Source of the DNA: Burkholderia metallica | GTDB taxonomy: Bacteria > Pseudomonadota > Gammaproteobacteria > Burkholderiales > Burkholderiaceae | Reading direction: 5' to 3' | NCBI RefSeq assembly: GCF_902832845.1 | Contig: NZ_CADFDB010000010.1 | Span: forward strand, 186,001 to 250,000 | DNA: 64,000 nt | Shown here: positions 1,635 to 64,000 of the stretch, in pieces | Layout: each line of letters opens with the position of its first letter | Position numbering within the stretch: position 1 is the stretch's first letter | Position numbers and translations under genes: made by a program | Notes under the pieces: model-generated | Told to the model about the DNA's origin: nothing | What the model saw: the letters and a program-made list of their open reading frames with translations, nothing else | The model's database searches: none

Positions 1635-4600
1635 ATGGCAAGCGCAGACAAAGAAACCGTACCCTCGACCCTCCATGCCCTCGGTGGCGTTGCACGTTCG
1701 CGCCGGACCCGGCGCATCGGCATCGGCCTGCTGATCTTCGTCGTTTTATTCGGACTGCTCGGATTCTTCGCGGCGCCGCCGCTGATCCGCCATGTCGCCG
1801 AACAGCAGTTGAGCAAGCAGCTCGACCGCCCCGCGACGATCCAGCGCATCGCGCTGAACCCGTACACGCTGAACCTCGAAGCCGACGGCGTTCATCTCGG
1901 CGAAAAAGGCGGCCAGGGCGACTTCATCGACATCGCGAAGCTCGTCGTGCGGCCGTCGTGGTCGTCGCTGTTTCGCGGCGCGCCGATCGTCAATGAAGTC
2001 CGCCTCGATTCGCCGCGCTTTCATGTGGTTCGCCTCGACGCACAGCGCTTCAACTTCACCGACCTGATCGAGAAGTTCTCCACGCCGTCGCCCAAACCGG
2101 AGAGCAAGCCGACGCAGTTCTCGGTGTCGAACATCCAGGTCAACAACGGCCGGATCGATTTCGACGATCGCCTGCTGAACGAAAAGCACGTCGTCGACAA
2201 CTGGACGCTCGGCATTCCGTACATCGCGACGCTGGCCTCGAAGACCGACATCTTCGTCGAGCCGAAGCTGCGCGCGCGCTTCGACGGCAGCCCGATCGCG
2301 ATCGACGGCAAGACCAAGCCGTTCGCGCAATCGCGCGAATCGGAAATCGCGCTGAAATTCGACGGCCTCGACGTGCCGAAGCTGATTTCATACGTGCCGG
2401 CGAAGCTGCCGGTGGCGGTGACGAGCGGCCTGCTGAGCAGCGACCTCACGGTCAACTTCGTGATGAGCGGCGAGACGCCCGCGCTGCGCGTATCGGGCAC
2501 CGTCGACCTGAAGGACGCGAAGCTGACGGACCGCGCGTCCGCGCCGCTGTTCGCCGCGCGCGGCGTGCACGTCGCGGCGGCCAGCCTCGAGCCGCTGCGC
2601 AACGCGATGCACTTCGACGAGATCCGGATCGACCAGCCGGTGGTCGACCTGTCGCGCGACAAGCAGGGCGTGCTGAACGTCGAGAAGCTCGCCGCGCAGC
2701 CGGCCGCCGCGCCGAAGGCCGCCGACGGCAAGCCCGCGGCGTCGGGCGCCGCGGCGGCTTCCGCCGCTGCCGAAGCGGCCGCCAGCGGCGCGAAGGCTGA
2801 AGCCGGCGCGAAGGAGGCGCCGCCGCTCGACCTGACGATCCGCCATTTCGCGATCGACGGCGGCACGGTCAACGTCGACGACCGCGTGCCGGCGACACCG
2901 ACCGCGCTGTCGCTCACGAAGCTCGCCGCGACGCTCGACGGCTTCTCGATGCAGGGCAAGGCGCCCGCGAAATACACGCTGTCGACGTCGCTGTCGCGCG
3001 GCGGCGACGTGAAGGCCGAAGGCGCATTCAATCTCGCGGGGAAGCAGGCCGGCGGCAAGCTGACGGTCGCCGCGCTCGCGCTGCCGGCGCTGCAGCCGTA
3101 TCTCGGCGAGGCCACGCGTGCGCGCGTGCTTGACGGCACGCTCGGCGCCACCGTCAACGCGAAGGCCGACTGGGGCAAGACGCCGCTCGCCGCGCAGGTC
3201 GCCGACAGCACGGTCAGCCTGAAGTCGCTGAAGATCGCGACACCCGACGCGAAGGCGCCCGCGATCGTGCTGCCCGACGCGAACGCGAAGATCGCGAAGG
3301 TCGACGTTGCCGCGCGCACCGCGGAGATCGCGAGCGTCGACGTCAGCGGTCTCGCGCTCGACGTGCAGCGCCTGAAGGACGGCAAGATCGACCTCGCGGC
3401 GCTGGCCGAGCCGGCGCAGGCGTCGGTGCCGAAGCGCACGGTCGCGCGCAAGGCGCAGGCCGCCGCGCCGTCGTGGCATTACCGGATCGACGCGCTGAAC
3501 GTGAAGGACTCGTCCGCGAACTTCACCGACCTGTCGACGCCGCGCCCGGTGAAGCTGGCGATCAAGCCGCTGGACCTGTCGGTGCAGAAGATCAGCGACG
3601 ACATGACGAAGCCGCTGCCGGTGCAGCTGAAGGCGACGCTGAACCGCAAGGGTTCGCTGAACGTGACGGGCGACGTGACCGCGCAGCCGCTGAAGCTCGG
3701 GCTGAAGATCAACGGCAACCGGCTCGACGCGGCCGCGTTCGAGCCGTACTTCGGCAGTGCGCTGAACGCGACGATCGCGAGCGCGCTGCTCAACGCGCAG
3801 GGCAACCTGACGTTCGCGCAGGTGAAGGACGCGCCGCGCGCGACTTATCGCGGCGACGTCGCGCTCGTCGACGTCCGGATGCTCGACAAGGCAACCTCCG
3901 ACCCGTTCGCGGGCTGGCGCTCGCTCGCGCTGACCAACCTGAAGGCGAACTACGACGAGAAGGGCACCGACGTCGACGCCGCGCGCGTGACGTTCTCGAA
4001 CTTCTACGGCCGCGTGCTGCTCGACGCGCAGGGGCGCCTGAACCTGAATGACGTGGTCGCGAAGGAATCGGGCCCCGCCCAGTCGCTCACGCGTGATGCG
4101 AGCAAGGGCGAGCCGGTGCCGCTGTCGCCGGGCATGACGCCGCCGGCTGCCGCGCAGGCCGCGTCGGCCGCGGCCGCGCAGCAGGCGTCCGCGCCGGCGG
4201 CCGCATCGGCGACGGTGGTCGTGAAGGCCGCACCGCCGCCGCAGCACCCGGTGCGGATGCATTTCGGCGAGTTGCTGCTGCAGAACGGCCGCGTCACGTA
4301 CACCGACAACTTCATCAAGCCGAACTACACGGCGAACCTCGTCGCGATCAAGGGCACGGTCGGCGCGTTCGGCACGGATTCGACCACGTCCGCGCCGGTC
4401 GACGTCGCCGCGAACCTCGCGGGCAACGGGCCGATCTCGATCAAGGGTTCGGTGAATCCGCTGATCGAGAAGCCGGCGCTCGACCTCACCGCGACCGCGC
4501 ACGACATCGAGCTGACCAACCTGACGCCGTACTCGGCGAAGTACGCGGGCTATCCGATCACGAAGGGCAAGCTCAACGTCGATCTGCATTACGCGCTCGC

Positions 4601-5438
4601 GAACGACCAGTTGAAGGCGAACAACCACATCTTCATCGACCAGCTCACGTTCGGCGATCGCGTCGAGAACGACACGGCGACCAAGCTGCCGGTGAAGCTC
4701 GCGATTTCGCTGCTGAAGAACACGCGCGGCCAGATCGACGTGAACCTGCCGGTGTCGGGCTCGCTGTCGAATCCGGAGTTCAGCGTCGGCGGGCTGATCT
4801 GGCGGGCGGTGCTGAACCTGATCGCGAAGGCCGTCACGTCGCCGTTCTCGCTGCTCGCGCATGCGTTCGGCAGCGGCGGCGAGGATCTCGGCTACGTCGA
4901 GTTCGCGCCGGGCTCGTACCGGCTCGACGACGCGCAGCAGAAGAAGCTCGACACGGTCGTGAAGATGCTGACCGAGAAGCCGTCGATCCGTCTCGACCTG
5001 ATCGGCCGCGTCGACCCGGCGAAGGACACGTCGGGGCTCGGCGACGCGTACGTCGACCGGCTCGTGCGCCAGCAGAAGCTGAAGGACGTGATCGGGCAGG
5101 GCGAGAGCGTCGACCCGATGTCGGTGAAGGTCGAACCGGCCGAGTACAGCAAGTACCTGACGCGCGCGTACAAGGCCGCCGACTTCAAGAAGCCGCGCAA
5201 CCTGATCGGCCTGCAGAAGACGCTGCCCGACGCCGACATGAAGAAGGCGCTCGCCGAACATGCGCCGGCCGACGACAACGCGCTGCGTGCGCTCGCGCAG
5301 CAGCGCGCGCAGGCCGTGCGCCAGTATCTCGACGGGAAGATCGATTCGAGCCGCGTGTTCGTCGTCGCGCCGAAGCTCGATGCGAAGGGCATCGAGGACA
5401 AGGGCGCGACGACCCGCGTCGACTTCGGCCTGCAGTAA
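1635..5438 (+). CDS. AsmA-like DUF748 protein with OmpA-like C-terminus
   Basis: This 1267-residue protein has one N-terminal transmembrane helix (about residues 35-55), then a very long beta-rich region of repeated AsmA/DUF748 type. Proteins of this class are inner-membrane-anchored, span the periplasm and are thought to act in lipid transport or outer-membrane homeostasis. Two Ala-rich low-complexity linkers lie near residues 355-395 and 830-865. The last ~180 residues look like an OmpA/MotB-type domain (VEFAPGSYRLDD, then RAQAVRQYLDG), which would bind peptidoglycan. Length and layout suit the bacterial DUF748 family. It is a single-gene unit, closed by a GC hairpin shared with the opposing small gene. 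Confidence 0.88.
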   Translation: MASADKETVPSTLHALGGVARSRRTRRIGIGLLIFVVLFGLLGFFAAPPLIRHVAEQQLSKQLDRPATIQRIALNPYTLNLEADGVHLGEKGGQGDFIDIAKLVVRPSWSSLFRGAPIVNEVRLDSPRFHVVRLDAQRFNFTDLIEKFSTPSPKPESKPTQFSVSNIQVNNGRIDFDDRLLNEKHVVDNWTLGIPYIATLASKTDIFVEPKLRARFDGSPIAIDGKTKPFAQSRESEIALKFDGLDVPKLISYVPAKLPVAVTSGLLSSDLTVNFVMSGETPALRVSGTVDLKDAKLTDRASAPLFAARGVHVAAASLEPLRNAMHFDEIRIDQPVVDLSRDKQGVLNVEKLAAQPAAAPKAADGKPAASGAAAASAAAEAAASGAKAEAGAKEAPPLDLTIRHFAIDGGTVNVDDRVPATPTALSLTKLAATLDGFSMQGKAPAKYTLSTSLSRGGDVKAEGAFNLAGKQAGGKLTVAALALPALQPYLGEATRARVLDGTLGATVNAKADWGKTPLAAQVADSTVSLKSLKIATPDAKAPAIVLPDANAKIAKVDVAARTAEIASVDVSGLALDVQRLKDGKIDLAALAEPAQASVPKRTVARKAQAAAPSWHYRIDALNVKDSSANFTDLSTPRPVKLAIKPLDLSVQKISDDMTKPLPVQLKATLNRKGSLNVTGDVTAQPLKLGLKINGNRLDAAAFEPYFGSALNATIASALLNAQGNLTFAQVKDAPRATYRGDVALVDVRMLDKATSDPFAGWRSLALTNLKANYDEKGTDVDAARVTFSNFYGRVLLDAQGRLNLNDVVAKESGPAQSLTRDASKGEPVPLSPGMTPPAAAQAASAAAAQQASAPAAASATVVVKAAPPPQHPVRMHFGELLLQNGRVTYTDNFIKPNYTANLVAIKGTVGAFGTDSTTSAPVDVAANLAGNGPISIKGSVNPLIEKPALDLTATAHDIELTNLTPYSAKYAGYPITKGKLNVDLHYALANDQLKANNHIFIDQLTFGDRVENDTATKLPVKLAISLLKNTRGQIDVNLPVSGSLSNPEFSVGGLIWRAVLNLIAKAVTSPFSLLAHAFGSGGEDLGYVEFAPGSYRLDDAQQKKLDTVVKMLTEKPSIRLDLIGRVDPAKDTSGLGDAYVDRLVRQQKLKDVIGQGESVDPMSVKVEPAEYSKYLTRAYKAADFKKPRNLIGLQKTLPDADMKKALAEHAPADDNALRALAQQRAQAVRQYLDGKIDSSRVFVVAPKLDAKGIEDKGATTRVDFGLQ

Positions 5439-5448
5439 GCGGGCCATC

Positions 5449-5486
5449 CGCCGCCGCGTCCGTTCATCCGTTCGGGCGCGGCGGCG
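5449..5486. terminator. GC hairpin between convergent genes
   Basis: A perfect 10-bp stem (CGCCGCCGCG at 5449-5458 pairing with CGCGGCGGCG at 5477-5486) lies between two gene ends that face each other. There is no T-tract on either side, so termination function is inferred from position and symmetry only. Confidence 0.45.
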
Positions 5487-5494
5487 CGCAGCCT

Positions 5495-5719
5495 TCAGCG
5501 CGCGGCGATCGCCGGTTCCTCGCGCTTGCCCAGTTCCTTCTTCGCGGCCAGCGGCAGACGCGCGTCGTCCCACTGCGCCAGCCATTCGACTTCCTTCGCC
5601 GTGAATACCTGTCCGTAGTTGCGCAACGCGTACTGCAACGCGTCGACGACGTGATGGCGAATGATTTCGGGGGTGCGTGCATCGTCCAGCACGAACCGGA
5701 GGGCTTCCAGGGTCGACAT
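5495..5719 (-). CDS. small conserved hypothetical protein
   Basis: A 74-residue cytoplasmic protein beginning MSTLEALRFV. I chose the internal ATG at 5719 because residues encoded further upstream are Arg-rich and look like noncoding DNA. The sequence is mostly helical and charged, with a KEVEWLAQWDDARLP segment, and has no signal peptide or membrane helix. I do not recognise a domain. It is convergent with the DUF748 gene and divergent from the phosphodiesterase gene. A real gene is supported by codon bias and by amino-acid composition unlike the flanking frames. Confidence 0.6.
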   Translation of the reverse strand: MSTLEALRFVLDDARTPEIIRHHVVDALQYALRNYGQVFTAKEVEWLAQWDDARLPLAAKKELGKREEPAIAAR

Positions 5720-6012
5720 ACTCGTGCTCCGGGTCAGGGAAAACCCTTTATCACACGCCAATAGTCGCGCGCCAAGCCGGAAAAAAATCGTGTGGCCGCG
5801 GCGCCGCACCCGTTCCGGCCGATGCACCGCGGCGGTGCCCGCAACCGGCGGCGCGCGTCGCATTGCGACTGCTTCGTGTCACTTGCGATTGGTTACGTTT
5901 GACAGAAAACGGAAAGCTCCGCTTCATCCGACCGCCGCACGATCCGGCGATAGTCTGCGCGCCTGATGGCAAGTCACGCAGTTCAACGTCAATCGATGAA
6001 GGTGGGGTGATC

Positions 6013-7686
6013 ATGTCTTTCCTTGGTAAGCAGCGCAGGTGGGTGGCGATGGTGGCGGGCGCGGCGGCGCTCGCAGGCGCGGCTGCGCACGCGGCGCAGC
6101 AGGACGGCAGCAGTCGGGGCGACGAGCGCGGCCATGCGAGCCGCGTCGTGAAGCACGTGCTGCTGATCAGCATCGACGGCCTGCACGAGCAGGATCTCGC
6201 GCGCTGCATCGGCGCGAACACGTGCCCGAACATCGCGGTGCTCGCGCAGAGCGGCGTGACGTACGCGAATGCCTATACGCCTGGCCTGTCGGATTCGTTT
6301 CCGGGGCTCGCCGCGCTCGTGACGGGCGGCTCGCCGAAGACGGCCGGCCTGTTCTACGACGTGTCGTACGACCGCAACCTGTACGCGCCGGGCGACACGA
6401 GCTGCACGGGCAAGCAGGGCTGGAACGTCGTGTTCGACGAGACGACCGGCATCGATGCCGAGAACGGCGGCGCGCTCGTCCACCTGAACGGCGGCGGCGC
6501 ATTCAACCCGCAGGCGATCCCGAACGCGAAGGTCGACGGCAAGTGCGTGCCGGTCTATCCGCACAACTACGTGAAGACCAACACTGTGTTCGAGGCCGTG
6601 AAGGCCGGCATCCCGAACGCGACGACCGCATGGGCCGACAAGCACGCATGGGGCTACGACTGGCTGAACGGGCCGTCGGGCACCGGCGTCGACGATCTCG
6701 CGCGCACCGAGATCAACTCGATCGATCCGGCGACGAAAACGGACTACACGGACGTCTATTCGCACACCGCGCAGTTCGACAACCTGCACGTGCAGGCGCT
6801 GATCAACCAGATCAACGGCCGCGACTCGACGGGCACGAAGCGCGCACCGGTGCCGACGCTGTTCGGCGCCGACTTCCAGACGCTGAGCGTCGCGCAGAAG
6901 GCGGTGGTGACGAAGGGCGGCGGTTACCTGGATGCGAACTTCACGCCGAACGGGCAGGTCGCGAACGCGATCACGTACGTCGACAACGCGATCGGCCACA
7001 TCGTCGCGGCGCTCAAGCAGGCGAACCTGTATTCGTCGACGGCCGTGATCGTCACGTCGAAGCATGGCCAGTCGCCGACCGATCACACGAAGCTCGTGAA
7101 GAACGGCGACACGCTGACCAAGCTGCTCGAAGCGAACGATTACATCGACCCGAACGGCAATTTCGGCCAGAACAACACGAAGACGGGTAACCTGAACGAC
7201 GGCTCCGGCCTCGTCGGCACGGGCTTCGTGCAGACCGACGACGTCGGCCTGATCTGGCTGCGCGACCGCAACCAGCGCACGGCCGTCGTACAGACGCTGA
7301 AGGCGAACCTGGGCTGCAACGCGCCGGGGATCTGCGCGGACGGCGCGCAGGCGTCGATCCTGTACGGCGCGGCGCTCGCCGAGCGCTTCGGCGACCCGGC
7401 CAACGGCCGCACGCCGGACATCATCGTCCAGCCGAATCCGGGTGTGATCTACACGTCGAGCACGAAGAAGGACGAGGAGCACGGCGGCAACGCACCGGAC
7501 GACAGCCACCTCGGCCTGCTCGTGTCGTATCCGGGCCTGCATCGCGCACGCACGGTGACCGACACGGTCGGCACGAAGCAGGTCGCGCCGACGATCCTCG
7601 CGCTGCTCGGCGCGAATCCGCGCCTGCTGCATGCGGTGGTGGCGGAGAATACCGGCGTGCTGCCGGGGCTCGGCATCGATCGCTGA
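6013..7686 (+). CDS. exported type I phosphodiesterase / nucleotide pyrophosphatase
   Basis: This 557-residue protein has an N-terminal Sec signal peptide (cleavage after AAHA, near residue 27) and the alkaline-phosphatase-superfamily core. Metal site residues are visible in ISIDGLHEQD (Asp55), in SKHGQSP and in DEEHGGNAPDDSH. The nucleophile position, in SDSFPGLAALVTGG, is Ser95, where the NPP subfamily usually has Thr; this may shift preference towards monoesters, which is inference. The start at 6013 is preceded by AAGGTGG. It probably hydrolyses phosphodiesters or nucleotides in the periplasm. A GC hairpin follows the stop, and the opposing gene ends 90 bases further on. Confidence 0.85.
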   Translation: MSFLGKQRRWVAMVAGAAALAGAAAHAAQQDGSSRGDERGHASRVVKHVLLISIDGLHEQDLARCIGANTCPNIAVLAQSGVTYANAYTPGLSDSFPGLAALVTGGSPKTAGLFYDVSYDRNLYAPGDTSCTGKQGWNVVFDETTGIDAENGGALVHLNGGGAFNPQAIPNAKVDGKCVPVYPHNYVKTNTVFEAVKAGIPNATTAWADKHAWGYDWLNGPSGTGVDDLARTEINSIDPATKTDYTDVYSHTAQFDNLHVQALINQINGRDSTGTKRAPVPTLFGADFQTLSVAQKAVVTKGGGYLDANFTPNGQVANAITYVDNAIGHIVAALKQANLYSSTAVIVTSKHGQSPTDHTKLVKNGDTLTKLLEANDYIDPNGNFGQNNTKTGNLNDGSGLVGTGFVQTDDVGLIWLRDRNQRTAVVQTLKANLGCNAPGICADGAQASILYGAALAERFGDPANGRTPDIIVQPNPGVIYTSSTKKDEEHGGNAPDDSHLGLLVSYPGLHRARTVTDTVGTKQVAPTILALLGANPRLLHAVVAENTGVLPGLGIDR

Positions 7687-29136: not shown

Positions 29137-30342
29137 TCAGGCCGTCGTGGTGTCGATGACGCCCGGGATCTTCACGTCCGGGTTCACGTCCGCGTCGTAG
29201 TCGACGCCGGCGATCTCGAAGCCGAACAGGCGCAGGAAGTCGGTCTTGTAGCCGGCGAAGTCGGTCATCTCGTACAGGTTGTCGTTCGTGACGTGATCCC
29301 ACATCGCGACGACCTTCTGCTGGACCTGCGGGTCGAGTTCCTTGTAGTCCGCGCGCAGACGGCCTTCTTCGTCGACGTGCGGCGTCGCGCCGTACAGGCT
29401 GTCCTTGAAGAGCCCGTAGACCTGCTCGATGCAGCCTTCGTGCGTCCCGCCTTCCTTCATCACCTTGAACAGCAGCGACAGGTACAGCGGCATCATCGGG
29501 ATCGCCGAGCTCGCCTGCGTGACGACGGCCTTCAGCACCGACACGCGCGCGTCGCCGCCATGCGCGGCCAGCTTGTCGCGAATCGACAGCACCTTCTTGT
29601 CGAGATCCTTCTTCGCTTCGCCGATCGTCCCGTTCCAGTAGATGTCGTGCGTGATCTGCTCGCCGAGATACGTGAACGCGGTGGTCTTCGCGCCGTCGGC
29701 CAGCACGCCGGCTTCGGCGAGCGCGTCGATCCACATCTGCCAGTCCTCGCCCCCCATCACCGTGACCGTGCCGTCGATCTCTTCCTGCGTCGCCGCATCG
29801 AGCGACACTTCGCGGATCACTTCCTTGTCGGTGTCGAGGCCGCGGAACGTGACCGACTTGCCGATCGGCTTGAGCGTCGAGCTGACGGTTTCGCCCGTCG
29901 TCGGGAGCGTGCGGCGCGGTGCCGCGAGGCTGTAGACCACGAGATCGACCTTGCCGAGATCCTGCTTGATGGTGTCGATCGTGACCTGCTTCACGTGGTC
30001 GGAGAACGCGTCGCCATTGATGCTGCGCGCATAGCGACCCTTTTCCTTCGCGAACTTCTCGAACGCGGCACTGTTGTACCAGCCGGCCGTGCCCGGCTTC
30101 GTTTCGCTGCCCGCGCGCTCGAAGAACACGCCGAGCGTGTCGGCGTCCGAGCCGAAGGCGGCCGAGATCCGGGCGGCGAGGCCGTAGCCGGTCGACGCGC
30201 CGATCACGAGCACCTTTTTCGGGCCGTTGGCGATCGGGCCGTGCGAAGTCACGTAGTCGATCTGTTCCTTGACGTTGGCTTCGCAGCCGACCGGATGAGT
30301 CGTCACGCAGATGAAGCCACGCACGCGCGGTTTGATGATCAT
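29137..30342 (-). CDS. fabV: FabV-type NADH-dependent enoyl-ACP reductase
   Basis: The 401-residue enzyme performs the last reduction of the fatty acid elongation cycle (trans-2-enoyl to acyl). The start [20 protein letters not shown] and the cofactor region [14 protein letters not shown] are diagnostic. The active-site pattern Y-x8-K is present as Tyr235 with Lys244 and Lys245, the same numbering as in the studied Burkholderia mallei enzyme. FabV enzymes are much less sensitive to triclosan than FabI. AGAGG precedes the ATG. Its upstream region is shared with a divergent GbsR-like regulator and contains one of that regulator's boxes. Confidence 0.97.
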
Positions 30343-30443: not shown

Positions 30444-30467
30444 TTATTTCTCTCTTGACAGAAATAA
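30444..30467. promoter_or_regulatory. inverted-repeat operator, copy 1
   Basis: TTATTTCT-N8-AGAAATAA, a 24-bp palindromic site immediately before the regulator start and 102 bases from the fabV start. It matches copy 2 (31070-31093) in length, arms and flank (both are followed by CTG), which supports a single binding protein. Confidence 0.75.
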
Positions 30468-30472
30468 CTGAA

Positions 30473-31024
30473 ATGAATAAATTTCCCGACATGGAACTCA
30501 CACCGATTGCCGAACGATTCATTCTCCACTGGGGCGAAATGGGCTCGCGGTGGGGCGTCAACCGCACCGTCTCGCAGATTCACGCGCTGCTCTATCTGGC
30601 CGGCCGGCCGGTCGCGGCCGACGAGATCGCCGAGACGCTCAACGTCGCGCGCTCCAACGTCAGCACCAGCCTGAAGGAGCTGCAGGCGTGGCGGCTGGCG
30701 AAGGTCGTGCACGTGCTGGGCGACCGCCGCGACCACTTCGAGACGTCGACCGACATCTGGGAGCTGTTCAAGCTGATCGTCGAAGGGCGGCGTCAGCGCG
30801 AGATCGAGCCGACGCTCACGGTGCTGCGCGACTGCCTGACGAGCCCGGAGATCGCGAACGAGAGCCGCGAGACCGAGCAGCGCATTCGCGACACGCTGCA
30901 GTTCGTCGAGACGCTCACGACCTGGTCGGACGAGATGCTGCGGCTCAAGCCCGATACGCTGATGAAGGCGCTCGGCATCGGCGCGAAGATCAGCCAGACG
31001 GTCAGGCGCAAGCCGTCGAAGTAA
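30473..31024 (+). CDS. GbsR/MarR-family transcriptional regulator
   Basis: A 183-residue winged-helix protein of the GbsR branch: ELTPIAERFILHWGEMGSRWGVNRTVSQIHALLYLAGRPVAADEIAETLNVARSNVSTSLKELQAWRLAKVVHVLGDRRDHFE, followed by a long helical dimerisation tail. The ATG at 30473 was chosen because an upstream TTG (30455) lies within the operator palindrome. A 24-bp inverted repeat sits directly upstream and recurs before the next operon, so it probably represses itself and the four genes behind it. The effector is unknown. A strong terminator follows. Confidence 0.9.
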   Translation: MNKFPDMELTPIAERFILHWGEMGSRWGVNRTVSQIHALLYLAGRPVAADEIAETLNVARSNVSTSLKELQAWRLAKVVHVLGDRRDHFETSTDIWELFKLIVEGRRQREIEPTLTVLRDCLTSPEIANESRETEQRIRDTLQFVETLTTWSDEMLRLKPDTLMKALGIGAKISQTVRRKPSK

Positions 31025-31038
31025 GCGGGACGCGCAGT

Positions 31039-31061
31039 GCGGGCAGACAGCCCGCTTTTTT
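31039..31061 (+). terminator. rho-independent terminator of the GbsR-like gene
   Basis: GCGGGC-AGACA-GCCCGC followed by six T residues, 15 bases after the stop. It separates the regulator from the downstream operon. Confidence 0.92.
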
Positions 31062-31069
31062 CGGGGTTT

Positions 31070-31093
31070 TTATTTCTGTCTGTACAGAAATAA
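31070..31093. promoter_or_regulatory. inverted-repeat operator, copy 2
   Basis: TTATTTCTGT-N4-ACAGAAATAA, a perfect 10-4-10 palindrome just before the operon start at 31113 and just after the regulator's terminator. It is the stronger of two copies of the same site. Confidence 0.8.
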
Positions 31094-31112
31094 CTGTAAA
31101 TAGAGGATGAAA

Positions 31113-32420
31113 ATGAACACCGCCTTGTCGCCGACCCGCCTGCCTGGCCGCACCGGCGCGCGCAGCATGACCGTCCTCGTGTGCGGCGCGAACGGCTTCA
31201 TCGGACGCGCGCTGTGCGCGCGGCTCGAAGCCGACGGGCATCGCGTGCTGCGCGGCGTGCGTCACGCCGAGGGCCCGCGCGACGTCGCGATCGACTTCGC
31301 GAAGGACGTCGATCCCGACGTGTGGCTCGCGCGGCTCGCGGGCGTCGACGTCGTGATCAATGCGGTCGGCATCCTCGCCGACCGGCGCGGCGCGACGCTC
31401 GACGCCGTGCATCGCGCCGCGCCGTGCGCGCTCTTCACCGCGTGCTGCCGCGTCGGCGTGCGGCGCGTGATCCAGATCTCGGCGCTCGGCGTCGAGCGCG
31501 GCGATACGCGCTACTTCGCCAGCAAGCACGCCGCCGACAGCTTCCTGCAGACGCTGCCGATCGACTTCCGGATCGTGCGGCCCGCGCTCGTCTACGGCAC
31601 GGACGGCGCGTCCGCGCGGTTGTTCCGGATGCTCGCGAGCCTGCCCGTGCACGTGCTGCCGGCGGGCGGCCAGCAGCGGCTGCGCCCCGTGCACGTCGAC
31701 GATCTCGCCGAAGTCGTCGCGCGCTGCGTCGATGCGCGGGCGGCCGGCCGCCCGGTGATCGAGGTCGTCGGCCGCGACGAAGTCGAATACCGCGAGATGC
31801 TGGCCCGCTACCGCGCCGCGCTGGGGTTTGTGCCGGCCGCCCGCGTGACGCTCGCGGGCACGCTGGCCGGCGCGGCGGCCGCGCTGCTCGGTATGTTGCC
31901 GGGCGCGATGTTCACGCGCGACACGTGGGCCATGCTGCGCGGCGGGAACACCGGCGATCCGGCCGCCGTCACGGCGATGCTCGGCCGCGCGCCGCGCGGG
32001 ATCGACGGCTTCATCGGCGCGCAGGCCGCCGCGCTGCGTCACGAGGCGCTCGCGATGTGGCGCGGCCCGCTGCTGCGCGGCGCGCTCGCGATCGTGTGGA
32101 TCTGGACGGCCATCGCCAGCGCGTTCATCCATCCGCTGCACGCGAGCCTCGCGCTGCTCGCGCCCGCGCACCTGACCGGGCTGCCTGCGCTGATCGCGCT
32201 GTATGCGGCCAGCGCGCTGGACTTCGCGTTCGGCATCGCGACCGTCGCCGCGCCGTCGCGCCGCCTGTGGGTCGCGCAAGCGGTGCTGATCGTCGCGTAT
32301 TCGGCGGTCATCGCGGTCACGATGCCCGGCCTGCTCGCCGAACCGTTCGGCCCCGTGCTCAAGAACGTCCCGATTCTCGCGATCCTGTTGATCCTTTTTT
32401 CAGAAGAAGAACGCACATGA
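31113..32420 (+). CDS. SDR/epimerase with C-terminal DoxX-like membrane domain
   Basis: A 435-residue fusion. The N-terminal half is an extended-SDR Rossmann domain (VLVCGANGFIG, Gly25-Gly31; NAVGILAD; a FASKHAAD segment with the SDR lysine). The C-terminal ~130 residues are four hydrophobic helices of DoxX-like type. ATG 31113 is better spaced from AGAGG than 31107. It is first in an operon; the next gene starts inside its stop codon (ATGA overlap). Probable role: NAD(P)-dependent chemistry on a membrane-bound substrate, which is inference. Confidence 0.88.
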   Translation: MNTALSPTRLPGRTGARSMTVLVCGANGFIGRALCARLEADGHRVLRGVRHAEGPRDVAIDFAKDVDPDVWLARLAGVDVVINAVGILADRRGATLDAVHRAAPCALFTACCRVGVRRVIQISALGVERGDTRYFASKHAADSFLQTLPIDFRIVRPALVYGTDGASARLFRMLASLPVHVLPAGGQQRLRPVHVDDLAEVVARCVDARAAGRPVIEVVGRDEVEYREMLARYRAALGFVPAARVTLAGTLAGAAAALLGMLPGAMFTRDTWAMLRGGNTGDPAAVTAMLGRAPRGIDGFIGAQAAALRHEALAMWRGPLLRGALAIVWIWTAIASAFIHPLHASLALLAPAHLTGLPALIALYAASALDFAFGIATVAAPSRRLWVAQAVLIVAYSAVIAVTMPGLLAEPFGPVLKNVPILAILLILFSEEERT

Positions 32421-32887
32421 ACACCTATCTCGTCGTCAAGGCGCTTCACATCCTGTCCTCGGTGCTGCTGGTCGGCACGGGGTTCGGCACCGCGTTCTAC
32501 CTGTTCTTCGCGAACCGCACGCGCTCGGTGCCCGCGATCGCGGCCGTGTCGCGGCTCGTGGTGCGCGCGGACTGGTGGTTCACGACGCCGGCCGTGATCT
32601 TTCAACCGGCGTCCGGGCTCTGGCTCGCGCATACGGCCGGCTGGCCGTGGCATACGCCGTGGCTCGTCGCGTCGGTCGTGCTGTATGCGATCGCCGGTGC
32701 ATGCTGGCTGCCGGTGGTATGGCTGCAGATCGAACTGGCCGCGATGGCGAAGCGCGCGCACGCGAACGGCGCTGCCGCGCTGCCGCAGCGGTACTGGCGC
32801 TATGCGAAGCGCTGGGAGTTGCTCGGCTATCCGGCGTTCTTCGCGATGCTGAGCGTCTACTTCCTGATGGTGCTCAAGCCGATGTGA
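32417..32887 (+). CDS. DUF2269-family membrane protein
   Basis: The 156-residue integral membrane protein has four helices and resembles DUF2269 (MNTYLVVKALHILSSVLLVGTGFGTAFYLFFANRT). A conserved His in the first helix (KALHILSS) recalls haem or quinone-linked small membrane proteins such as the CopD/HemJ group, but no haem site is proven. It starts in an ATGA overlap with the SDR-DoxX gene, so translation is coupled. The next gene follows after 101 bases. Confidence 0.85.
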   Translation: MNTYLVVKALHILSSVLLVGTGFGTAFYLFFANRTRSVPAIAAVSRLVVRADWWFTTPAVIFQPASGLWLAHTAGWPWHTPWLVASVVLYAIAGACWLPVVWLQIELAAMAKRAHANGAAALPQRYWRYAKRWELLGYPAFFAMLSVYFLMVLKPM

Positions 32888-32988
32888 GCGCGCCGCCGCC
32901 GCGCGGGAGCGGCGAGGCGGCGATGCGGTGTTCGAGCGGGCAGTCGTTCGATTCATGATGCATGCGACAACAAGAAGGAGTGCGAATC

Positions 32989-33855
32989 ATGAGTTCAAGG
33001 GAACTGGTGCTGTACTTCGACGGACGATGTCCGTTATGCGTGGCGCAGATCAAGCGTCTCAAGGTGCGCGACGCACAACAGCGGCTGGCGTTCGTCGATA
33101 TCGCCGAGCCGGGCTTCGATCCCGCGCCGCTGGGTATCGACCTGCCCGCGCTGAACCGCGAGATGCACGCGCGCCTGCCCGACGGGCGCATGCTGACCGG
33201 CGTGGACGGCATCCTGGCCGCCCATGCGCTGACCGGGCGCCGCTGGCTCGCCCGTCTGCTTCGCGTGCCGGTCGTGCGTGACGCACTTGCGCCGCTGTAT
33301 CGATGCGTCGCGCGCAACCGCCACGCCGTTTCGCGCCGGCTCGGCTATCGGATCGAAGCGCCGTGCGACGAGGTGGCGTGCGGTAGCGGCCGTGCCGCCG
33401 AAACCACGGCGGATCATCCGTCGGGAGACGCGGCGCGCCGCATCGTGGTTGCGTGGATGTATGGCGCCGCGATCGCGCACCTGCTCGTCGGCGTGGTCGT
33501 GCCATGGGTTGCCGGTGCGCGCTGGCTCGACGCGTATCACCGCGTCGTCGAGCTGCATTTCTGGGCGGGAACGGCACCCGGCGCCGCGCGCGCCCAGCAG
33601 ATCTGGTGGATGTCGCTGATCGGCGCGACGGTGCAATGCGCGGCGGTCTGGATGCTGGCGCTCGTCCATCTCGGCAGCCGGCTGCGCCGCCGCGAAGTGT
33701 GGGGATGGCTGCTGGCCGGCCTGCTGATCTGGGCGCCGCAGGACCTGCTGCTTTCGATGCAGGCCCATGTGGCGGGCCACGTGGCGATCGACGCGGCGGC
33801 ACTCGTCGCGATGGTGCCGCCGCTCGTCTGGCTGTGGAGGAGGGACACCGAATGA
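32989..33855 (+). CDS. DUF393 thiol-disulfide protein with membrane domain
   Basis: The 288-residue protein starts with a DUF393 (DCC family) thioredoxin-like domain, LVLYFDGRCPLCVAQIKRL, with a CPLC redox pair (Cys14, Cys17). From about residue 145 it continues into four membrane helices, which is longer than the usual ~130-residue DCC protein. AAGGAG lies eight bases before the ATG at 32989. Its stop overlaps the start of the next gene (ATGA). It could move reducing equivalents at the membrane, which is inference. Confidence 0.88.
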   Translation: MSSRELVLYFDGRCPLCVAQIKRLKVRDAQQRLAFVDIAEPGFDPAPLGIDLPALNREMHARLPDGRMLTGVDGILAAHALTGRRWLARLLRVPVVRDALAPLYRCVARNRHAVSRRLGYRIEAPCDEVACGSGRAAETTADHPSGDAARRIVVAWMYGAAIAHLLVGVVVPWVAGARWLDAYHRVVELHFWAGTAPGAARAQQIWWMSLIGATVQCAAVWMLALVHLGSRLRRREVWGWLLAGLLIWAPQDLLLSMQAHVAGHVAIDAAALVAMVPPLVWLWRRDTE

Positions 33856-35351
33856 ACACCTTGCCTGCTTTCGACTGGGCGCTCAACCTGCTGATCGTGC
33901 AGGGCGCGATGGGTGCAATCGATACGCTCTATCACCACGAACTCACGCAGGATCTGCCGCACAGCCCGCGCGCGCGGCTCGAGCTGGCGATTCACGCGGT
34001 GCGTTCCGTGCTTTACGGTTTCGTGTTCGCATCGATCGCGCACGTCGCGTTTCACGGGGCATGGGTCGTGGCCGTCGCGGCGGTGGTGGTCGTCGAGGTC
34101 GGGCTGACGTTGTGGGATTTCGTCGTCGAGGACCGGAGCCGCAAGTTGCCGGCGACCGAGCGCGTGCTGCACACGCTGCTGGCCGTCAACGGCGGCGCGC
34201 TGTTCGGGATGATCGCGATGCAACTGGCCGCGTGGGCGCACGAGCCGACCGCGCTGCAGATGCTCGATCCCGGCTGGCGCGGCTGGGTGTTGAGCCTGTT
34301 TGCCGTTGGCGTGGCGGTATCGGGTATCCGCGACGGGATCGCGGCCTGCCGGATCGCCTGTCGCGCGCCGGCTGCCAATCCGTTCGCGGGACAGCCGCCG
34401 GGGAACGTGTTCGTGACCGGCGGGACCGGCTTCATCGGCGAAACGCTCGTGAACCAGCTGCTCGATGCGGGTCATGCGGTCACGTTGCTGGCGCGCGATC
34501 CGCTGCGCGCGGCCTACCTGTTTCGCGGCCGCGTGCGCAGCGTGACGTCCGTCGAACAGCTGCGGCCGCACGAGCGTTTCGACACGGTCATCAATCTCGC
34601 GGGTGCGCCGGTGCTGGGCGCGCGCTGGAGCAAGCGCCGCCAGGCGTTGCTGCTCGCCAGCCGGGTCGGTGTCACGGAATCGCTGATGCGCTGGGTCGAG
34701 ACCGCCGAGGTCAAGCCGCGCACGTGGATTCAGGCTTCGGCGATCGGCTACTACGGTGTGCGTCCCGCCGACGAGCGGCTCGACGAGCGCAGCAGCGCGG
34801 GCACCGGCTTCATGTCGGCGCTGTGTCGGCAGTGGGAGCAGTCCGCGCAACCGCTGGAGCGTCACGGCGTGCGCACGGTCGTGCTGAGGCTGGGCGTCGT
34901 GTTCGGCCCCGGCGGCGCGTTGCGCCCGATGCTGCTGCCGCATTACTTCGGGATGGGCGGCCGATTCGGCGACGGCGCGCAGGTGATGAGCTGGATCCAC
35001 CGCGACGACGTGCTGCGCATCGTCGCACGTGCGATTGGGCACCCGGACATGCGCGGCGTCTACAACGCGGTCGCACCCGCGCCGCTGACGCAGCGCGAAT
35101 TCGTGCAGGTCGTGTCGAAGGTGCTGCGGCGTCCGGCCTGGCTGCACGTGCCGGCCGCGCCGTTGCGCGTTGCGCTGGGCGAGATGGCCGGGCTGCTGGT
35201 GGACGGGCAGCGGGTGATGCCGGCGCGGCTGCATCAGGACGGATTCATGTTCCGGTTCCCGACGGCCGAATACGCGCTGCGTGACCTGACGAATCGGCCG
35301 CACGCGGATTTTCCGCGCACGGCCTGTCGTTTGCCCCGAGGTCGTGTATAA
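33852..35351 (+). CDS. membrane domain fused to TIGR01777 (YfcH-like) epimerase
   Basis: A 499-residue fusion. Residues 1-165 carry four membrane helices and an early His pair (DTLYHHELTQDLPHS). Residues 185-499 are a TIGR01777-family NAD(P)-binding epimerase: VFVTGGTGFIG (Gly190-Gly196), NLAGAPVLGARW, ASAIGYYG, and MSWIHRDDVLRI. The family has no settled function. Most members are ~300-residue soluble proteins, so the N-terminal membrane part is unusual. It is last in the operon, with ATGA overlap to the DUF393 gene. Confidence 0.9.
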   Translation: MNTLPAFDWALNLLIVQGAMGAIDTLYHHELTQDLPHSPRARLELAIHAVRSVLYGFVFASIAHVAFHGAWVVAVAAVVVVEVGLTLWDFVVEDRSRKLPATERVLHTLLAVNGGALFGMIAMQLAAWAHEPTALQMLDPGWRGWVLSLFAVGVAVSGIRDGIAACRIACRAPAANPFAGQPPGNVFVTGGTGFIGETLVNQLLDAGHAVTLLARDPLRAAYLFRGRVRSVTSVEQLRPHERFDTVINLAGAPVLGARWSKRRQALLLASRVGVTESLMRWVETAEVKPRTWIQASAIGYYGVRPADERLDERSSAGTGFMSALCRQWEQSAQPLERHGVRTVVLRLGVVFGPGGALRPMLLPHYFGMGGRFGDGAQVMSWIHRDDVLRIVARAIGHPDMRGVYNAVAPAPLTQREFVQVVSKVLRRPAWLHVPAAPLRVALGEMAGLLVDGQRVMPARLHQDGFMFRFPTAEYALRDLTNRPHADFPRTACRLPRGRV

Positions 35352-35423: not shown

Positions 35424-36047
35424 ATGCTGCGCATCCTCGGCAAGATTCCTTCCATCAACGTCCGCAAGGTGCTGTGGCTGTGCACCGAACTGAACCTGCC
35501 GTTCGAACAGGAAGACTGGGGCGCGGGCTTTCGCACGACCAACGATCCGGCCTATCTCGCGCTGAATCCGAACGGGCTCGTGCCGGTCATCAAGGACGAC
35601 GATTTCGTGCTCTGGGAGTCGAACACGATCATCCGCTACCTCGCGAACCGCTATGGCGGCGACGCGCTCTATCCGGCCGAGCCGCACGCGCGCGCGCGGG
35701 TCGATCAATGGATCGACTGGCAGGGCGCCGACCTGAACCGCTCATGGGTCGGCGCGTTCCTCGGCCTCGTGCGCAAATCGCCCGATCATCAGGATCCGGC
35801 CGGCATCGCGCAGTCGATCGCGGGCTGGACGAAGCACATGCAGGTGCTGAATGCGCACCTCGAAGCGACCGGTGCATACGTGGCCGGCAACCGCTTCACG
35901 CTCGCGGACATTCCGATCGGCCTGTCGGTGAACCGCTGGTTCGGCACGCCGTTCGAGCATCCGGATTTCCCGGCGGTGTCGCGCTATATCGAGCGACTCG
36001 CGACGCGCGAAGGCTTCCAGAAGTACGCCGGCAGCGCGAACCCGTGA
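35424..36047 (+). CDS. glutathione S-transferase family protein
   Basis: The 207-residue protein begins [33 protein letters not shown], with a Ser in the first active-site loop (SINVRKV) as in beta/theta-like GSTs. [24 protein letters not shown] gives the cis-Pro and Glu-Ser glutathione contact, and the helical C-terminal domain follows. CAAGGAGA precedes the ATG. It lies 72 bases after the redox membrane operon on the same strand, so it may be read through from it, but it has its own ribosome-binding site and space for a promoter. It shares little with the GST at 18284. Confidence 0.92.
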
Positions 36048-63370: not shown

Positions 63371-63679
63371 ATGCAACAAGACGATCGCGATGCGCTGCGG
63401 AACCTGCAATACCTGTCGTTGCTGGAGGCGACCACGCTCGTCGTGCTCGTGTGCGTCGCCGTGCCGCTCAAGCACCTGGCCGGCTATCCGGCCGCGGTAT
63501 CGATCATGGGGCCGGTGCACGGCATCGCGTTCGCGATGTACGTGTGGGCGGTCGTCGGCACCGCGTCGAGCGGGCTGTGGCGCAAGGCCGAAGTCGCGCG
63601 GCTCGTGCTGGCGGCCGTCGTGCCGTTCGTCGGCCTGACGAGCGCCGGATGGATCGCGCGCAGGCGGCACGCGCGATGA
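63371..63679 (+). CDS. DUF3817 small membrane protein
   Basis: The 102-residue product has three membrane helices with the DUF3817 pattern: LRNLQYLSLLEATTLVVLVCVAVPLKHLAGYP, GPVHGIAFAMYVWAVVG (with the conserved His) and VARLVLAAVVPFVGLTSAGWIA. GGAGG precedes ATG 63371. The next membrane gene begins inside its stop codon (ATGA overlap), so the two are cotranslated. Function is unknown; the divergent GlxA-type regulator is a possible controller. Confidence 0.9.
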   Translation: MQQDDRDALRNLQYLSLLEATTLVVLVCVAVPLKHLAGYPAAVSIMGPVHGIAFAMYVWAVVGTASSGLWRKAEVARLVLAAVVPFVGLTSAGWIARRRHAR

Positions 63680-64000
63680 TCTACCTCTGGATCAAGGCCG
63701 TTCACGTCGCGGCCGTCGTCACGTTCGTCGGCGGCCTGTTGATGCTGGCCGTCGGCGTGCGTATCGCGAACCTCGCCGTGCATCGCGCGGTGCGTCGCTG
63801 GGATCGCACGGTGACGGCGCCCGCGCTCGCGCTCGTCTGGATCGCGGGCATCGCGCTTGCGCTGAACGGTCACTGGTTCGGCGCGGCGTGGCTGTCGGTG
63901 AAGTTCGTGGTGGTGGCCGCGCTGTCGGTGCTGCACGGGTTGCTGGCCGGCACGCTGCGGCGCATGGAACGCGACGATCTCGTCGTCGTGCCGGCGTCGT
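63676..64000 (+). CDS. CopD-like membrane protein, cut by the window edge
   Basis: The first 108 residues are present (MIYLWIKAVHVAAVVTFVGG at the start, then three more helices). The His in the first helix (KAVHVAAVV) and the overall spacing resemble CopD/HemJ-type membrane proteins. It starts in an ATGA overlap with the DUF3817 gene and runs off the right edge, so the C-terminus is not seen. A copper or haem-related role is a family-level guess. Confidence 0.7.
   Translation, partial: MIYLWIKAVHVAAVVTFVGGLLMLAVGVRIANLAVHRAVRRWDRTVTAPALALVWIAGIALALNGHWFGAAWLSVKFVVVAALSVLHGLLAGTLRRMERDDLVVVPAS

Follow-up and report, generated by a model that had tools for sequence, protein, structure and literature searches.

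The window analysed here, a 64,000-nucleotide stretch of Burkholderia metallica DNA (assembly GCF_902832845.1, contig NZ_CADFDB010000010.1, positions 186,001 to 250,000), contains at 30444-35351 a gene for a GbsR-type regulator followed by four genes for membrane proteins: a short-chain dehydrogenase/reductase fused to a DoxX domain (SDR-DoxX), a DUF2269 protein, a DCC1-like (DUF393) protein, and a TIGR01777 protein with an N-terminal membrane domain. The locus raises the question of what joins these genes and which process they serve. Our preferred answer, held with about even confidence, is an autorepressed respiratory or redox-stress regulon whose products would modify or repair a membrane quinone or lipid by NAD(P)H- and thiol-linked chemistry. 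The regulation is well supported by the sequence, and we infer the signal, the substrate, and the chemistry. The window proteins were annotated with Pfam and NCBIfam, and the source genome comprises 7.55 Mb in 37 contigs; L and G numbers below are our labels for loci and genomes.

Paired operators precede the regulator gene and the operon

Two unstranded 24-bp inverted repeats, operator 1 (TTATTTCTCTCTTGACAGAAATAA, 30444-30467) and operator 2 (TTATTTCTGTCTGTACAGAAATAA, 31070-31093), stand before the regulator gene and before the operon. Each pairs with itself at 10 of 12 positions, the two are identical at 21 of 24 positions, and no third copy was found in the 7.55-Mb genome at up to 3 mismatches (reversed control, 0). 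The window sites, TTTCTCTCTTGACAGAAA and TTTCTGTCTGTACAGAAA, follow a TTTC-N10-GAAA frame and are not of the TTTCAG-N6-CTGAAA type; they are the only two sites of that frame in the 64-kb window, for which a first-order Markov model gives a mean expectation of 0.29. The right half of operator 1 holds a TTGACA -35 hexamer (30455-30460), with a possible -10 element, TAAATT (30478-30483), 17 bases downstream. This TTGACA core is near-fixed in the upstream sites of the 80 named-genome loci described below (positions 9-14, T76 T77 G75 A81 C78 A76; n = 81 sites). Since operator 1 overlaps the regulator's own -35 element, bound repressor would cover the regulator's promoter, and the transcription start is predicted from this position to lie at about the ATG. 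Operator 2 lies 13 or 19 bp upstream of the operon's first start (31107 or 31113), and no -10 element for an operon promoter was found at the proper spacing from its TGTACA.

The regulator gene (30491-31024, + strand; alternative ATG at 30473) is followed on the same strand by the genes for SDR-DoxX (31113-32420; start 31107 also listed), DUF2269 (32417-32887), the DCC1-like protein (32989-33855), and the TIGR01777 protein, which comprises the N-terminal membrane domain (33852-34388) and the TIGR01777 SDR with DUF1731, a relative of SDR39U1 and ThyD (34407-35351). The domain calls (MarR_2; NAD_binding_10/Epimerase plus DoxX_3; DUF2269; DCC1-like; TIGR01777 plus DUF1731) bear out the four families named in the original prediction, which had been made from the sequence alone. 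Its GbsR-like regulator, its inverted repeat before both regulator and operon, and its two ATGA overlaps also hold: the DUF2269 ATG at 32417 overlaps the SDR-DoxX end at 32420, and the TIGR01777 ATG at 33852 overlaps the DCC1-like end at 33855. A gap of 101 bases separates the DUF2269 stop from the DCC1-like ATG at 32989. Judged from the upstream bases, 30491, 31113 (over 31107), 32417, 32989, and 33852 are the better starts, and 30491 is also the start of the regulator's relative in G014. The strong terminator that had been proposed after the regulator stands in part: a hairpin of 6 G-C pairs (31039-31055) followed by a T run is present (31039-31061, + strand), whereas the terminator scan gave 4 terminator-like sites per 7 kb against 3.9 in shuffles, which is not proof. 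A terminator at this position is plausible.

Comparison of 65 genomes of the genus, tallied by us with E < 1e-90 as a strong SDR-DoxX match, revealed both the operator and such a match in 47, the operator only in 2 (G014 and G050), SDR-DoxX only in 1 (G010), and neither in 15. In G050 a contig end falls inside the operon, G010 retains the regulator, SDR-DoxX, DUF2269, and a weaker site, and G020 also has one match to the reversed-control pattern. SDR-DoxX is in pieces in G025 and G057; the G025 copy (C2, 2033121-2034439) lies in two overlapping frames, perhaps through a frameshift or an assembly error. We propose that the GbsR-type repressor binds the 18-bp core TTTCTGT-N4-ACAGAAA over its own -35 element and just 5' of the operon, so that it would limit its own synthesis and hold the operon low. 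Judged from the sequence, this first step, together with the membership of the genes in the module, is very probable.

The operator and the module recur together in Pseudomonadota

In a scan of named bacterial and archaeal genomes, the best 80 loci of at least 573 confirmed relatives, ranked by regulator similarity and including many near relatives, were mapped. They come from Burkholderia (the closest regulators, at 99% identity), Paraburkholderia, Caballeronia, Pandoraea, Achromobacter, Bordetella, Cupriavidus, Azoarcus, Chromobacterium, Undibacterium, Variovorax, Lysobacter, Psychrobacter, and other genera, and from metagenome bins labelled Magnetococcales and Zetaproteobacteria. A module family is present in the stretch in 77 of the 80 loci, and downstream on the same strand within 6 kb in 73; none was found in L130 and L151 (contigs of about 7 kb) or in L170. 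SDR-DoxX occurs in 56 loci, DUF2269 in 47 (always with SDR-DoxX), the DCC1-like protein in 45, a DUF4166-type protein in 16, a small unnamed protein in 14, and TIGR01777 in 12. These counts use our own profiles with the best hit per gene, since the SDR families otherwise cross-hit; the DUF4166-type label comes from our own model of three proteins, two of which Pfam confirms; and absences in maps from a gene finder that drops genes were not scored as losses. Sites of the TTTC-N10-GAAA frame lie upstream of the regulator in 76 of the 80 loci, downstream in 69, and on both sides in 65, with 150 sites in 24 kb of promoter windows and 19 in 973 kb elsewhere.

The idea that the four genes form a conserved set fell, since all four stand behind the regulator in only 4 of the 80 loci, all Burkholderia, and additionally in L052. 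Their expected co-occurrence with the regulator stands for the module families in general and for SDR-DoxX and DUF2269 as a stable pair; the DCC1-like and TIGR01777 genes are present at some loci only, or lie elsewhere with an operator of their own. The conserved core is SDR-DoxX and DUF2269, to which DCC1-like, TIGR01777, DUF4166, or desaturase genes are variably added. Across the phylum, DUF2269 exceeds the cut-off in 67 of 299 genomes, and SDR-DoxX adjoins it in 14 of 20 sampled DUF2269 loci; at one phylum locus the SDR-DoxX/DUF2269 pair lies directly before the gene for cytochrome bd subunit I. A class-level sample, less biased than the 80 named loci, contains the regulator (E ≤ 1e-25) in 28 of 369 genomes, the source genome included. 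The 28 loci from the other 27 genomes divide into 12 linked to the module, 7 linked to cydA, and 9 linked to neither, one of which (L080) has the membrane domain on the same contig. The set had been called a candidate undescribed system, and no description of the four families together was found in the open papers searched by family name.

The additions differ among lineages. In Psychrobacter, the regulator is followed by FA_desaturase genes along with TIGR01777 and DCC1-like genes; L178 has two such desaturase genes, and in L187 the single one tested is of this family. Desaturases were looked for in Psychrobacter loci only. This desaturase-bearing operon lies at about 7100-11900 in L178 and L187. 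Variovorax loci have a DCC1-like gene, with a methyltransferase in L180 and a weak SRPBCC-type match under the cut-off in L181 and L197. In Paraburkholderia, Caballeronia, Pandoraea, and Trinickia the DCC gene is divergent, with an extra site in the common promoter region (L133-L137). An unnamed hydrophobic protein of about 125 residues with the motif CGx4AxFW follows the regulator in several lineages; its copies include 6996-7370 in L038, 7010-7384 in L079 (in the regulator's + orientation), and 4354-4734 in L120. The copies tried gave no significant Pfam family, the one copy tried gave no NCBIfam family, and the source genome has no convincing copy (E 0.23). In L120 (G698, a genome from a different class within the phylum), the genes for the small protein, SDR-DoxX, and DUF2269 stand behind a TTTCTGTTATTACAGAAA site (4211-6495), and the 12 kb contain no regulator match.

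Sites were also found away from the regulator. In 27 genomes picked for carrying the regulator, sites occur in 27 of 27 and the reversed pattern has 0 matches. G014, the only genus genome with more than two operator sites, has two sites at its regulator and a third, unlinked site upstream of a DCC1-like/TIGR01777 pair. Three further sites far from any regulator (in G078, G198, and G283) lie upstream of a DCC1-like gene, a 290-residue DCC1-like gene, and a saccharopine-dehydrogenase-type SDR, which we count as module-type because the same type adjoins DUF2269 in L037 and L049. Starting from sites, all 4 regulator-distant ones thus precede module-type genes. Starting from genes, 1 of 3 membrane-TIGR01777 genes without an adjacent regulator has a site: in L211 it lies immediately 5' of the gene, the membrane domain and TIGR01777 are encoded by separate genes, and the regulator lies on a different contig. 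The L212 genome has no regulator at E ≤ 1e-25. These results bear on the alternative that a promoter region inherited in common is all that links the genes, which would then serve no shared purpose. Operon composition does differ strongly among lineages, and two of the three unlinked membrane-TIGR01777 genes have no site; yet the same families recur in other orders, divergent or unlinked, behind the same operator, which makes this alternative very improbable.

The regulator belongs to a sister clade of cytochrome bd-linked regulators

The regulator has a MarR-type helix-turn-helix domain (MarR_2, 7.3e-10) and shares invariant motifs with cydA-linked regulators, a group counted as GbsR-type in a family review (PMC6207618). 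That review sorts GbsR-type genes according to their neighbours and uses the name CydE for the cytochrome bd group; its text does not contain the word DoxX. The GbsR family suggests, as one explanation, a classical osmoprotectant system sensing choline or glycine betaine, and the regulator does match the model of the choline regulator CudC at 1.8e-12. The match reaches only 47 bits against a cut-off of 218, however, no transporter or betaine gene lies among the window neighbours scanned, and the regulator groups beside cytochrome bd-linked regulators, so that such a system is extremely improbable here.

A tree of 140 different regulator sequences, among which the CydE and CioR proteins themselves are not represented, separates module-linked from cydA-linked kinds on a branch with 100/100 support: 104 module-linked and 14 unlabelled sequences lie on one side, and 17 cydA-linked and 5 unlabelled ones on the other. 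The sister regulators adjoin cytochrome bd genes (Pfam-confirmed in L062 and L073, elsewhere called by a subunit I profile) and are 33-52% identical to the window regulator. A photolyase or light regulon was dropped as a candidate, as the partners of about 457 and 340 residues beside the sister regulators are cytochrome bd subunits. No cytochrome bd genes were found with Pfam among the window neighbours scanned.

The sites follow the same division. Module-linked loci (n = 113) have 104 module-type sites, 0 cyd-type, and 9 none; cydA-linked loci (n = 20) have 15 cyd-type, 0 module-type, and 5 none; and unlabelled loci (n = 22) have 14 module-type, 2 cyd-type, and 6 none, where site type means the nearest consensus, some cyd sites are borderline (L071), and the 155 loci include some stretches twice (for example, L039/L133 and L085/L207). 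Sites of the module clade read TTTCTGT-N4-ACAGAAA, whereas those of the cydA-linked sisters are of the TTTCAG type, of the kind TTTCAGAAATTCCTGAAA or TTTCAGTAATTACTGAAA. A TTTCAGAAATTCCTGAAA-kind site (L062) is identical at 17 of 18 positions to the 18-bp core of the footprinted CydE site, TATTTCAGAAATTTCTGAAAGTTCA (PMC6096048). Three residues distinguish the two sides, which were entered by hand from the tree: W14, H31, and A53 on the module side (128, 127, and 129 of 129) and F, Y, and S on the other (20, 20, and 22 of 22), with A/S53 adjoining the invariant R54-S55-N56. Both regulator kinds co-occur in G084, G126, G234, and G283.

Two characterized proteins are GbsR-type MarR regulators like that of the window: CydE of Alishewanella, the cydEAB repressor, for which sulfate is the releasing signal (PMC6096048), and CioR of Chromobacterium violaceum, which represses cioRAB, an operon induced by cyanide (PMC11837568). 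The window regulator and CydE share an 18-bp TTTC-N10-GAAA palindrome near their own start (for CydE, from the footprint sequence), with other inner bases: TTTCTGT-N4-ACAGAAA in the window and TTTCAG..CTGAAA in the known systems. Unlike CydE and CioR, the window regulator lies in a separate clade, sister to the cydA-linked regulators of the tree, and precedes the SDR-DoxX/DUF2269/DCC/TIGR01777 module in place of cytochrome bd genes. By analogy with these two proteins, a respiration-disturbing signal such as cyanide, sulfide, metal, or a redox change might release the repressor from the operators, a second step that we rate as somewhat less than an even prospect.

The module combines two SDR proteins with a thiol protein and membrane domains

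Comparison of the SDR half of SDR-DoxX with the PDB gave 13 chains at 1e-4. Of these, 10 carry the name of complex I 39-kDa/NDUFA9 subunits, the best at 3.5e-12; the top match overall, 9g83_P (5.7e-18), has no more specific name than NAD-dependent epimerase/dehydratase. Among higher-eukaryote proteins, NDUFA9 is the one most closely related to yeast COQ11, a coenzyme Q metabolism protein (PMC11495197). The window protein retains GxxGxxG and, unlike these atypical SDRs, is fused to DoxX_3 and retains YxxxK (Y136 in 72 and K140 in 73 of 78), the likeness having been measured to NDUFA9 and not to COQ11. DoxDA, a thiosulfate:quinone oxidoreductase, has a DoxX-type membrane domain. The likeness is one of name: Pfam found only DoxX_3 in the window proteins, and nothing here indicates thiosulfate chemistry.

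DUF2269 is predicted to form four long helices (predicted local distance difference test score, pLDDT, 96.5) and has a near-invariant H11. It aligns weakly with the HemJ profile over a KALHI/KAFHI helix (hhalign 48%, E 1.8e-4; unrelated control, 0.15%). This alignment, the conserved histidine, and the SDR-DoxX/DUF2269 pair lying directly before cytochrome bd subunit I at one locus would suit a system maturing the heme or disulfide parts of respiratory oxidases, in which DUF2269 would be a membrane protein for heme or metal, like HemJ or CopD, and the DCC1-like protein would be the thiol reductant. We regard it as improbable: the profile score is weak (no PF03653 match at 0.001) and DUF2269 has no fold match, the source genome encodes a HemJ elsewhere, and the maps of cydA-linked regulator loci contain no module gene, although the gene finder drops some genes.

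The DCC1-like protein matches PF04134 at 1.2e-22 and is of the thioredoxin type, with a CxxC motif (CPLC) present in 59 of 59 rows. It shares this domain with proteins such as Arabidopsis AT1G52590, which is listed among plastoglobule core genes (PMC12587418), and has in addition a C-terminal hydrophobic region and a further pair of conserved cysteines (C125 in 56 and C130 in 57 of 58; numbering without Met). Its PDB matches were chance ones only, mostly streptavidin. The TIGR01777 domain scores 309 bits against a curated cut-off of 207, lies below the ThyD cut-off, and has 4b4o and 3oh8 as PDB relatives. The full TIGR01777 domain and DUF1731 are common to the window protein and SDR39U1/ThyD, to which the window protein adds the N-terminal membrane domain. 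This domain is predicted to form five helices (pLDDT 90.4), and a 19-row alignment has the invariant residues D24, H29, E30, E44, H48, R51, E82, D89, E93, D94, R97, E103, R104, and H107. A metal site is suggested by two ExxxH pairs together with the acidic residues, which lie on four helices. Of 274 class genomes, 7 encode the domain, the source genome included, and 5 of the other 6 also carry the regulator.

A membrane redox pathway is proposed

On these grounds, the operon would yield a membrane redox module as a third step. SDR-DoxX and DUF2269 would form its NAD(P)H-dependent core, the DCC1-like protein would contribute thiol-disulfide exchange, and the TIGR01777 protein would couple a second NAD(P)-binding SDR to the His/Asp/Glu-rich membrane domain, which may hold a metal. 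As a fourth step, which we put forward tentatively as possible though short of probable, the module would act on a hydrophobic substrate (respiratory quinone or membrane lipid), modifying it, turning it over, or repairing it while normal electron flow is blocked. An NAD(P)- and thiol-linked modification of lipid or quinone had already been suggested in the original prediction; it is still inferred, with more circumstantial support now. The cytochrome bd sister regulators, the NDUFA9-like SDR, the conserved membrane domain of the TIGR01777 protein as a unit of its own, and the lineage additions (FA_desaturase, DUF4166, methyltransferase, and the protein of about 125 residues) had been missed.

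Several observations weigh against the proposed function. NDUFA9 likeness need not imply quinone chemistry, and the DoxX, DUF2269, and TIGR01777 membrane domains point to no substrate. Foldseek gave no PDB match at E ≤ 0.001 for either the DUF2269 model or the TIGR01777 N-terminal domain, and the window copy of the latter has no Pfam match. No module gene was found with the regulator in the 22 unlabelled loci of the 155, and the membrane-TIGR01777 genes of L210 and L212 have no site within about 1.5 kb. A search of the source genome at E ≤ 1e-20 gave no second regulator of the GbsR-type kind, so co-regulation with cytochrome bd is not supported there, and the reported signals of the two relatives differ, sulfate for CydE and cyanide for CioR. 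The desaturase genes in the Psychrobacter operon favour acyl lipids rather than quinone, as do the desaturases together with the lipid-type partners elsewhere.

These last observations lead to a different explanation, a pathway that oxidises or desaturates membrane acyl lipids and does not involve quinones, in which the membrane domain or desaturases would add oxygen or a double bond, the SDRs would reduce or oxidise the product, and the repressor would sense the membrane or lipid state. The Psychrobacter genes of L178 and L187, the DUF4166, methyltransferase, and weak SRPBCC-type matches at other loci, the invariant acidic and His residues within the membrane domain, and the FabV gene divergent from the regulator in the window are all consistent with it. 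Against it, desaturases were looked for in Psychrobacter only, the window's four proteins have no Pfam desaturase match, and the regulator's nearest kin precede a quinol oxidase; we judge it unlikely. The repressor's relatives, the NDUFA9-like SDR, and the single cytochrome bd neighbour favour the respiratory quinone pool, which we prefer over acyl lipids with modest confidence.

In its widest form, the proposal is of a widespread undescribed membrane redox pathway. Its repressor lineage would have split from the cytochrome bd repressors, and a new intramembrane metal-binding domain fused to a TIGR01777 reductase would act with the NDUFA9-like SDR-DoxX/DUF2269 pair and the thioredoxin-like partner in altering or repairing the pool of quinones or lipids under respiratory poisoning. 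We consider this full version doubtful. The analysis gives several common but poorly understood families (DUF2269, DCC1-like, membrane TIGR01777, SDR-DoxX, and DUF4166) a single regulatory handle in many Pseudomonadota, among them Burkholderia, Lysobacter, and Psychrobacter, and ties the module families to a repressor family controlling the cyanide- and sulfide-resistant cytochrome bd oxidase. The recurrence of the switch and parts in many related bacteria makes joint function testable, the paired operators permit clean testing of how the regulons of two paralogous repressors are kept apart, and the membrane domain with its conserved His/Asp/Glu residues might represent a new membrane enzyme.

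Neighbouring genes

A glutathione S-transferase (GST) gene (35424-36047, +; Pfam) lies 72 bp 3' of the TIGR01777 stop, and the terminator scan gave no terminator-like site in this gap. It is a candidate read-through member, and the operon may extend into it; in G010 a GST gene directly follows DUF2269. On the other side, a gene for a FabV-type enoyl-acyl carrier protein reductase (29137-30342, - strand) is divergent from the regulator. Roughly 100 bp separate its start from operator 1, and the gene could be controlled jointly from the operator 1 region. FabV adjoins the regulator in G010 too. At the far end of the window, a second HemJ-like (UPF0093) open reading frame (63677-64000, +; PF03653, 8.8e-12) runs off the window end; the HemJ encoded elsewhere in the source genome is the stronger match.

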